The position numbers were made by a program, and so were the translations under genes. Positions 25,527-28,302 of a DNA stretch of 36,028 nucleotides are shown one piece after another. The DNA comes from Acidimicrobiia bacterium (GTDB taxonomy: Bacteria; Actinomycetota; Acidimicrobiia; Spongiisociales; JAENVV01). The notes under the pieces are model-generated. The model was not told where the DNA came from and did not search any database. It saw only the letters and a list, made by a program, of their open reading frames with translations. Within the stretch, counting starts at the first letter, position 1; every line of letters begins with the position of its first letter. Location: positions 1 through 36,028 of the forward strand of contig JAENVV010000253.1 in assembly GCA_016650365.1 (NCBI GenBank), written 5' to 3'.

Positions 25527-25853
25527 TCACTGGCTCCGGCAGGACAGTAGATCGTCGACGGTCGAAGAAGTGATCTGGTGGCGTTCCCCATTGGCGGTCA
25601 ACCATAGGTCTCCATCGATTTCATTGACGGTCACCGACACCGTGCCGCAATCGGTTTCGACGCGTCCATCGCCGGCGCGTGGACCCACGCTGACCCAGTC
25701 AACCTCTAGACCGATTGAAGCGACGCGATCCCGGAATTCTTCGGGAGTTCCGACCGCCCCGTCGGCCAGCCAGTACACAACCGAACCTCCGAAGATCACC
25801 AGAACAACGGTAAGGCTGACCAGAAAGATGAGGCGGCGCCGATCTACGACCAC
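25527..25853 (-). CDS. Small membrane-anchored protein, unknown function
   Basis: The protein has 108 residues starting at GTG 25853 (GAAGGA 6 bases upstream), which overlaps the end of the GNAT gene by 10 bases. The N-terminus is basic (VVVDRRRL), followed by one hydrophobic helix (about 9-30). An extracytoplasmic domain of about 75 residues ends in LLSCRSQ, with a Cys pair (one in ETDCGTVS). The tail reads like a conserved small beta-domain, but I do not recognise the family. Overlap with the acetyltransferase suggests translational coupling. Confidence 0.6.
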   Translation of the reverse strand: MVVDRRRLIFLVSLTVVLVIFGGSVVYWLADGAVGTPEEFRDRVASIGLEVDWVSVGPRAGDGRVETDCGTVSVTVNEIDGDLWLTANGERHQITSSTVDDLLSCRSQ

Positions 25854-26560
25854 GGTTGATCCTTCTCGACCGGACGAAACGACTGAAGAGATCGCAACTG
25901 TTCCCCGAGTTCGTCGAAGTTTTCTGCGCTCAGCCACGCTTGAAACGAAGCCCGCAACAGCGGCCAGTCTCTATCGATGATGGCGTACCAGGCGGTATCA
26001 CGGTTGCGGCTCTTGTAGTGGGTCGCCTGCCGGAAGACTCCCTCGAATTGGAAGCCGAGTCGACGGGCGGCCGCGTGCGAAGGAGCGTTGAGATGGTCAC
26101 ACTTCCATTCGCACCGTCGGTATCCGAGTTCAAAGCAATGGTTGATCATCAGGTACAGCGCCTCCGTTGCAGCGCTGGTTTTCTGAAGGCCCGGTGAGAA
26201 CGCCAATGACCCGATCTCAAGCACCCCGTTTGGTGGGTCGATGCGCAGGTATGAGGCCAACCCGACGGCGACTCCAGAAACGACGACCGCGTACGGCAAC
26301 CAACCATCGAGCGTGTTGAGTCCATCGAGTATCCGAGAAAGCTCATGAACATCGGAGAATGGGCCGAACGACATGTAGGTCCAGAGCGAGGTCGAGGCAG
26401 GAGCGAATGCTTCGAACAATTCGGCGGCATGGTCGCCAGGATCAAGCGGGACCAGATCGACCCGAGCCCCCTGGAGCGGGACGCGAGACGGCCGGACGGG
26501 CTCCTGCCAGCCGAGAAGATCGTCCCCGATCAGTTGTCCAAACTCATTGGTCCGGGTCAC
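25844..26560 (-). CDS. GNAT-family N-acetyltransferase
   Basis: The protein has about 238 residues from GTG 26560; the frame is open to 26752, and ATG 26626 is an alternative. It resembles the RimJ/RimL branch that acetylates protein N-termini or small amines with acetyl-CoA. Features: GARVDLVPLDPGDHAAELFEAF at the start of the fold, LASYLRIDPPNGVLEIGSLAFSP (strands 3-4), then an acetyl-CoA loop region with LQKTSAATEALYLMINHCFE in place of the usual G-G-T, and C-terminal NAPSHAAARRLGFQFEGVFRQA, the most characteristic stretch. No specific substrate can be assigned. It is divergent from the TrpF-like gene. Confidence 0.82.
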   Translation of the reverse strand: MTRTNEFGQLIGDDLLGWQEPVRPSRVPLQGARVDLVPLDPGDHAAELFEAFAPASTSLWTYMSFGPFSDVHELSRILDGLNTLDGWLPYAVVVSGVAVGLASYLRIDPPNGVLEIGSLAFSPGLQKTSAATEALYLMINHCFELGYRRCEWKCDHLNAPSHAAARRLGFQFEGVFRQATHYKSRNRDTAWYAIIDRDWPLLRASFQAWLSAENFDELGEQLRSLQSFRPVEKDQPWS

Positions 26561-26671
26561 GCAGTGATCGTAGTGGTTGCCGTGGCATCCATACGCCCAA
26601 CCTGCCTGCAGTGAGGACTGCTCCATGGCCAGTTGGCGACCCGGGTGCCGAAGTGCGATTATCCGACGGAC

Positions 26672-27361
26672 GTGAACAACCTCATTGTCCAGATCTACAC
26701 GATGCAATCTGTCGAAGAAGCCCTGGCAGTGGCAGCGCTCGGTGTCGACCACCTCGGAGTTACCCCATCCGATCGAGGTCTACCGGGCGAGATCTCCAAT
26801 AGCCTCGCAGCGGATATCTGCTCGACATTGATCGGGGTTGCCAAGTCGGTGGCGTTGACTGTCGAAACCGACCTCGACGCCATCGAATCCATGGTCAGCG
26901 ATGTCCGCCCCGACATTCTGCACCTTTGTGCCCCAGCGGGCGCGTTGGGGCCGGCCAGAGTGGAAATCCTGCGGCGTCGGATCCCTGGAACTCCCATCAT
27001 GCAAGCGATCGCGGTGACTGGCCCGGAGTCGGTTGACGTGGCCAGGTCGTACGCTCCCTTTGTCGACTACTTGATAGTTGATTCCGTCGATCCAAACATC
27101 GCAGGCGTCGGAGCAGCGGGAACGATCCACGACTGGGCCGTGAGTGCCGCAATAGTCGCCGCCGTGGAGCTGCCGGTGATCCTGGCCGGTGGATTGTCAC
27201 CTGAGAATGTGTCGGCGGCCATCGCACGCGTCCAACCCTCGGGAGTTGACTCGCTTACCCACACGAACCGGCCCGTAACCTCGGGCGGCTTCCGAAAGGA
27301 TCTTGTCAAAGTTCAGCGCTTTGTCAAGGAAGCCAGGGGAGCGACACCATCGGACGGATAG
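26672..27361 (+). CDS. TrpF-like (phosphoribosylanthranilate isomerase family) protein
   Basis: The protein has 229 residues from GTG 26672. It has a (beta/alpha)8 barrel related to phosphoribosylanthranilate isomerase: ALAVAALGVDHLGVTPSDRGLPGEIS near residue 18-43 corresponds to the GAD-LGF-F-SPR region, and PVILAGGLSPENVSAAIARVQPSGVDS (about 169-195) is the conserved phosphate-binding end. The catalytic Cys of true TrpF (in KICG at the end of strand 1) is absent; the equivalent stretch reads IVQIYTM. The GGTG loop reads GAAGTIHDW. No other trp genes are present, and a PfkB kinase follows after 2 bases. A different sugar-phosphate isomerisation or aldolase-like reaction is more likely than tryptophan synthesis. 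Confidence 0.75.
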   Translation: MNNLIVQIYTMQSVEEALAVAALGVDHLGVTPSDRGLPGEISNSLAADICSTLIGVAKSVALTVETDLDAIESMVSDVRPDILHLCAPAGALGPARVEILRRRIPGTPIMQAIAVTGPESVDVARSYAPFVDYLIVDSVDPNIAGVGAAGTIHDWAVSAAIVAAVELPVILAGGLSPENVSAAIARVQPSGVDSLTHTNRPVTSGGFRKDLVKVQRFVKEARGATPSDG

Positions 27362-27363
27362 TT

Positions 27364-28302
27364 GTGATTGGCGACGCCAATGTGGACCTCGAAATTCGCC
27401 TTCCCAAACGCGGAGTTTCCCCGCACGCCAATCCGGACCCCCGACTCTTCGGCGGGGGATCTGCGGCAAACACCGCAGCCGCTCTCGCCCGACTGGGAGA
27501 GCAGTGTTCGTTTGTTGGCACGGTCGGAGACGACAGCTACGGCCGATATGCAGTCGAAAGTTTGCGCCAAGTGGGAGTCGACACGGAATCGGTCGAGACC
27601 ACCCCTGATGAATCCACCGTGACCGTCATTACGGTGCTACCGACCGACGGAGACCGGCTTATCTATGTGTGGCCGCCCCGGGGCGGTGCTCATGGCCGCC
27701 TCCATGAGGCCCAAACCGTCGCATCCCTTATGGGCTCCGATTGGCTTCACGTATCTGGCATTTGTTTGCGCCTGTCTCCTGCACGCGAGGCGATTCTTGA
27801 GGCGATGCGACGGGCGAAAGAGGCCGGCATTCCCGTGTCTTTCGACCTCAACCTCCGCCTTGAGAACTGGGGATGGGAAGACAGCTTTCGAGATGTCGTC
27901 GAAAGAGCCATGACGAGCGCGGACGTGATCCTCGGCGCGGCAGCCGACGAAATCATCCCCCTTACCGGACTCAACGATCCGATCCAGGCGGCCACGCAGC
28001 TGGCTGGCCCGAATCGCGTGGTCATAGCTCGATTAGGAAGAGGAGGGGCTGTGGCTTGTTCCGCTGATGGGATAGCCCGGGCAGGCAGCTTCGACGTAGA
28101 GGTAGTCGACACGGTGGGTGCGGGCGACGCCTTCAACGCCGGCTTCATTACGGCACGGAGACGAGCCCTGGACCTGGCCGAAGCCATCCGTTGGGGCAAT
28201 GCCGTTGCTGCTCTCACCATCGCCAAGGCGGGTGCCCGCTCGACGCCAAGCATCGACGAGGTGGAGCGGCTGCTGGCTTCGGTGACCGCACCGCTCGAGT
28301 AA
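27364..28302 (+). CDS. PfkB/ribokinase-family sugar kinase
   Basis: The protein has 312 residues from GTG 27364, 2 bases after the TrpF-like stop. Motifs: VIGDANVDLEI at the start, GGGSAANTAAALARLG (about 35-50, PfkB signature 1), GTVGDDSYGRY, FDLNLRLENW (about 160-169), and signature 2 DTVGAGDAFNAGF with the catalytic base Asp255. It phosphorylates a sugar or nucleoside hydroxyl with ATP. The tight spacing implies cotranscription and probably a shared pathway with the TrpF-like barrel, for example phosphorylation followed by isomerisation of a ribosyl compound. The sugar is not predictable from sequence alone. Confidence 0.88.
   Translation: MIGDANVDLEIRLPKRGVSPHANPDPRLFGGGSAANTAAALARLGEQCSFVGTVGDDSYGRYAVESLRQVGVDTESVETTPDESTVTVITVLPTDGDRLIYVWPPRGGAHGRLHEAQTVASLMGSDWLHVSGICLRLSPAREAILEAMRRAKEAGIPVSFDLNLRLENWGWEDSFRDVVERAMTSADVILGAAADEIIPLTGLNDPIQAATQLAGPNRVVIARLGRGGAVACSADGIARAGSFDVEVVDTVGAGDAFNAGFITARRRALDLAEAIRWGNAVAALTIAKAGARSTPSIDEVERLLASVTAPLE

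Follow-up and report, generated by a model that had tools for sequence, protein, structure and literature searches.

A TrpF-like (β/α)8 barrel with a rebuilt active site is partnered with a PfkB-family kinase across phyla, and both this partnership and the distinctness of the barrel from the tryptophan enzyme TrpF are well supported. Because the pair recurs in distant bacteria and in one archaeon, with genes for nucleoside breakdown next to it in several cases, it is probably an uncharacterised route for nucleoside sugars and not part of tryptophan synthesis. The window, meaning the whole stretch of 36,028 nucleotides that was analysed, comes from a member of the Acidimicrobiia and carries the following genes:

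26672..27361, + strand: TrpF-like (β/α)8 barrel, 229 aa, with Tyr replacing the catalytic Cys (PF00697, clade alignment, 1LBM mapping, tree and model)
27364..28302, + strand: PfkB-family carbohydrate kinase, 312 aa, with a DTVGAGD motif (PF00294, cross-phylum conservation beside the barrel)
25844..26560, - strand: GNAT acetyltransferase in divergent orientation, start taken from homologues, outside the module (PF13302, E = 1.6e-11)

The barrel frame is open from a TTG at 26633 and its stop codon occupies 27359-27361; the GTG at 26672 is the best supported start, since homologues begin at that position. The kinase starts with a GTG at 27364, which leaves an intergenic gap of exactly 2 bases after the barrel end at 27361, as the initial annotation had stated. 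That annotation also described the barrel as fused to the kinase, which is incorrect, the genes being separate and adjacent. Its proposal of the GNAT gene as a possible third part was abandoned, as this gene is seen only at loci of the window’s genus and is missing from barrel loci outside it. Rfam returned zero matches across the window, and promoter and terminator prediction made no call near the two genes.

The barrel belongs to the PRAI family of Pfam (PF00697, E = 1.3e-10). Its AlphaFold model (mean pLDDT 94.0, pTM 0.91) was compared with known structures using Foldseek and VIA-align, and the best matches were all TrpF, with a Z-score of 26.8 for the T. maritima enzyme (1NSJ). The fold is thus common to both (Z about 26, rmsd about 2 Å for 1LBM and 1NSJ), at 22-26% identity between the barrel and its TrpF structural matches, while the next-best folds, which include ribulose-phosphate 3-epimerase and hexulose-phosphate synthase, score well below TrpF.

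Discrepancies appear at the active site. TrpF employs Cys7 and Asp126 as its catalytic pair. With the clade profile aligned full length to T. maritima TrpF (1LBM), Cys7 corresponds to Tyr9, Lys5 to Gln7, Gln81 to His84 and His83 to Cys86, whereas Asp126 is retained as Asp137 and is invariant across the clade. Tyr stands at the Cys7 position in all aligned clade members, and the clade alignment shows Q7, Y9, D137, H153 and D154 to be invariant across phyla, with H84 nearly so. The GGTG loop of TrpF is replaced by GVGAAG..HDW, so that two absences first noted on inspection of the window, those of the catalytic Cys and of the usual GGTG loop, are both confirmed. The accompanying statement that the phosphate-binding end is kept holds for the β7 loop (AGGL.PENV), which is common to barrel and TrpF, but not for the β8 ‘SSG’, which has become S(L)THT. 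The sole conserved lysine, K209, is conserved in TrpF too, and the clade alignment offers no conserved lysine inside the barrel as a Schiff-base candidate.

Phylogenetic analysis placed the QxY-motif sequences (n = 31) in one clade with support of 100/100, apart from TrpF and from two other PF00697 groups; as the sequences were gathered with the clade’s own profiles, the tree shows separation and not group limits. Members occur in Acidimicrobiia, other Actinomycetota, Chloroflexota, rhizobia and one haloarchaeon, and some lie on rhizobial plasmids and on one haloarchaeal plasmid. The barrel was present in 18/296 genomes of the class sample. The phylum sample (396 genomes) yielded two further members, G155 and G114, its remaining two matches (G077 and G220) keeping the Cys, and a sample of 400 Chloroflexota contained five member genomes (six loci) among the hits inspected. 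The Chloroflexota genomes with hits numbered 40, most of them carrying other PF00697 groups (KICC..MPSGPGVI or QIAG). A phage collection gave just four weak matches, each below 60% identity. The distribution is patchy, and this spread across phyla suggests horizontal transfer. The module kept by Sinorhizobium medicae has apparently disappeared from S. meliloti: in the latter, a short barrel-gene remnant, with ~40 residues matching, lies in the corresponding region (L057 11265-11432).

Two neighbouring groups emerged alongside the clade. A second divergent PF00697 group, K(I/V)CC...MPSGPGVI, keeps Cys and GGTG on its own branch apart from TrpF (loci L136, L138-L145 and L056, from Chloroflexota G811, G805, G479 and others, and Actinomycetota G220). 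In a third, VQ(I/V)AGI, Ala occupies the catalytic Cys position and PfkB is missing from the vicinity (L134 9592-10230 in G655; L135 9491-10108 in G575).

A PfkB gene lies within the same cluster at 28/31 clade loci, as opposed to 0/29 control PF00697 loci, where PfkB was sought within about 1.5 kb (26 KxCG, 1 KVCC type, 2 not resolved). Fisher’s test gives p = 4e-14 for sequences that are related and hence not independent. Co-occurrence of this clade with PfkB, which the initial annotation had put forward as a check, is well supported and far exceeds chance, and the barrel differs from TrpF in being accompanied by a PfkB kinase gene rather than by trp genes. The kinase gene is adjacent and on the same strand at 24 of the 28 linked loci; it is adjacent but divergent in G015, where the barrel sits at a contig end, and lies 5-6 kb away within a divergently arranged cluster in three rhizobia. 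Spacing at loci other than that of the window ranges from a 1-3 bp gap to a 4-14 bp overlap. At one locus, L132 1270-2183 (G444), the partner kinase frame is broken by a frame change, by sequencing error or decay.

The three kinase-less members constitute one subclade. Two of them, L045 10004-10663 and L060 8004-8663, are found on Aminobacter and Mesorhizobium plasmids, with purH, SAICAR synthase, a GMC oxidoreductase, a BtpA/SgcQ protein and a beta-RFAP synthase-like gene as neighbours, perhaps a biosynthetic cluster.

The window kinase comprises a full PfkB domain (PF00294, E = 2e-52), with the GG motif and the catalytic GAGD motif (DTVGAGD), the latter retained in the alignment. Its closest PDB entry is 1TYY (E = 7e-37; entry title ‘putative sugar kinase’), which we take to be aminoimidazole riboside kinase. 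Domain, GG and GAGD are common to fructokinase, 5-dehydro-2-deoxygluconokinase IolC, ribokinase and 1TYY; however, the window kinase falls under the curated cut-off of every specific family listed (126.5 bits against 299.65 for ribokinase, TIGR02152), and its substrate is therefore unassigned. For several partner kinases, ribokinase or ribose-1-phosphate kinase ranks first or second with scores below cut-off, and fructoselysine kinase is the top-scoring family for none. In the kinase tree, the partner kinases are divergent, with long branches and no single supported clade, so the substrate may vary.

Gene neighbourhoods point towards nucleosides. In five lineages, namely G833, G935, G114, G444 (two loci) and Halostella, the pair has a nucleoside hydrolase gene (PF01156) as its neighbour; the chance of at least five such adjacencies is about 1e-8, a rough figure from assumed gene counts. 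The hydrolase gene shares one base with the barrel gene in the streamlined genomes G833 and G935, and one G444 operon has the order nucleoside hydrolase, adenine deaminase, kinase, barrel. Downstream in Halostella are genes for an ABC ATPase and for a substrate-binding protein of the BMP (PnrA-like) type, and an ADP-ribosylglycohydrolase is also present. In the window, as in most Acidimicrobiia, the pair has no nucleoside gene beside it; the window’s genome has two nucleoside hydrolases, both on other contigs, and these enzymes are common in the taxa concerned, occurring also in two barrel-less relatives. The setting of the rhizobial barrels is different: their neighbours encode a sugar ABC transporter of the CUT1 type, a regulator of the RpiR type and a PLP enzyme whose closest counterpart is methionine gamma-lyase. 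A nucleoside role of the module is likely but not certain, and the repeated hydrolase linkage lends support to the early suggestion that the kinase supplies a phosphorylated sugar or nucleoside.

The genomes themselves bear on tryptophan synthesis. The initial annotation reported no trp genes, which is correct within the window; the genome, however, carries trpC-trpF-trpB-trpA together on another contig (G000:C39 3261-6593), where trpC was identified by a Pfam hit and trpB and trpA were recognised from sequence. The second PF00697 protein of this genome, encoded there, carries the normal KVCG motif. The initial annotation had named the lack of any other trpF in the genome, combined with conserved catalytic geometry, as a finding that would count against a new function; a canonical trpF is present on C39. 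Among 12 genomes tested for an IGPS gene, no match was obtained in the barrel carriers G833, G886, G902, G935, G114, G1033 and G444 (91-99% complete for G833, G114 and G1033; 63-77% for G886, G902 and G935; G444 without a figure). The f82/g256 genomes, of the same class as the window’s genome, measure about 1.1 Mb in the most complete cases with a GC content of about 33-35%, and look like Ca. Actinomarinales, an identity that we infer. Throughout the order Actinomarinales, auxotrophy for tryptophan, histidine and arginine is described, together with nucleoside uptake and degradation (PMC7771536). The complete trpCFBA set in its own genome and the seven barrel genomes without detectable IGPS together indicate that the barrel is not TrpF.

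On this basis, we tentatively propose, at somewhat below even odds, that the pair is a catabolic module for a nucleoside-derived sugar, with a pentose or pentoside as the kinase substrate and the phosphorylated product isomerised by the barrel. The sugar, either released from the nucleoside or still attached to it, would receive a phosphate on its terminal (5-) hydroxyl from the PfkB kinase. The TrpF-descended barrel, with part of the phosphate-binding end and the putative general acid Asp137 kept, would act next, yielding from the phosphorylated aldose (or N-glycoside) a ketose that could enter the pentose phosphate pathway. Isomerase chemistry is suggested here by the fold and the retained Asp, and the reaction order and the 5-phosphate are likewise inferred. 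A fuller version of this proposal, which we hold more tentatively still, is that a rebuilt TrpF-derived sugar-phosphate isomerase and a PfkB kinase may together provide a hitherto undescribed pathway for a nucleoside pentose that is modified or other than ribose, spread between bacterial phyla and to archaea, with the ~1.1 Mb Actinomarinales-like genomes among its carriers.

One alternative, which we regard as unlikely, is a barrel that serves as ribose-5-phosphate isomerase for this pathway alone, with the nucleoside hydrolase releasing D-ribose, the PfkB protein acting as ribokinase and the barrel yielding ribulose-5-phosphate. The hydrolase linkage, the chemical nearness of an aldose-ketose step to the TrpF reaction and the sub-cut-off ranking of ribokinase or ribose-1-phosphate kinase for several partner kinases would all suit it. 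Nevertheless, RpiB is found in all barrel genomes of at least 90% completeness, missing only from G886 and G902 (75-77% complete), and a canonical ribokinase is encoded elsewhere in 23/23 genomes tested, 21 of them barrel carriers; its gene immediately adjoins that of another nucleoside hydrolase in G1007, G1005, G899, G998 and G1033. The window kinase is, moreover, far under the ribokinase cut-off. Ordinary ribose therefore already has a route, the module being either redundant or for another sugar, and plain D-ribose is an unlikely sole substrate given that ribokinase and, in the genomes at least 90% complete, RpiB coexist with the module. The likeness to classical ribose salvage lies in a nucleoside hydrolase adjoining a PfkB kinase; that pair exists separately in several of these genomes, and what sets the module apart is its TrpF-like barrel and a PfkB protein other than ribokinase. 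With RpiB present, a role as the sole ribose-5-phosphate isomerase was rejected, as was a pentose bisphosphate/RuBisCO route, the RuBisCO large chain occurring in just 2/23 genomes tested. An aldolase or epimerase acting on a phosphorylated pentose, e.g. 2-deoxyribose-5-phosphate or arabinose-5-phosphate, would suit a second nucleoside pathway alongside the ordinary ribose one, and epimerase and synthase folds do feature among the next-best matches; their scores well under TrpF, and a barrel whose K209 is common to TrpF and which has no conserved Schiff-base lysine, make this reading quite improbable.

TrpF itself catalyses an Amadori rearrangement, and a deglycase pathway would draw on the same reaction type, with an Amadori compound (1-amino-1-deoxyketose) as kinase substrate and a reverse Amadori reaction in the barrel giving sugar phosphate and amine. 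There is precedent in FrlD/FrlB, where a fructoselysine PfkB kinase is followed by a deglycase acting on the phosphorylated sugar-amine, although FrlB is a SIS-domain protein unrelated to the TIM barrel here and the gene context differs. The rhizobial operon, with its transporter, regulator and PLP lyase-like enzyme, does resemble sugar/amine catabolic operons; glycated amines are not predicted, however, by a context of nucleoside hydrolase and adenine deaminase, and with fructoselysine kinase topping the scores of no partner kinase we find this pathway rather unlikely. Loss of the TrpF Cys and the tight coupling of the genes could also fit a barrel that assists or regulates the kinase without catalysis of its own, but the invariant and near-invariant residues would be typical of an active enzyme, and three members have no kinase, which makes such a role very unlikely. 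A divergent TrpF isozyme for tryptophan synthesis is the reading to which we give least credence: membership of PF00697, the TrpF fold and the catalytic Asp would accord with it, whereas the catalytic Cys is gone clade-wide, the genome’s own trpCFBA includes a Cys-bearing TrpF, the barrel is maintained in genomes without detectable IGPS, and it reaches at best 91.3 bits against the NCBIfam TrpF equivalog cut-off of 216.

Our literature search, which covered few subscription journals, retrieved no description of the barrel-PfkB pair, and in the accessible part of the AGeNNT paper TrpF is mentioned solely in trp or his context (PMC5445326). Publicly annotated clade members are labelled ‘phosphoribosylanthranilate isomerase’, a label that probably misnames every member of the clade; a barrel so mislabelled would give tryptophan-auxotrophic genomes an apparent part of the trp pathway. 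If the proposal is true, the module would provide a natural example of a TrpF barrel re-tooled for catabolism, and would point to two candidate genes for the use of nucleosides by streamlined bacteria that are probably marine.
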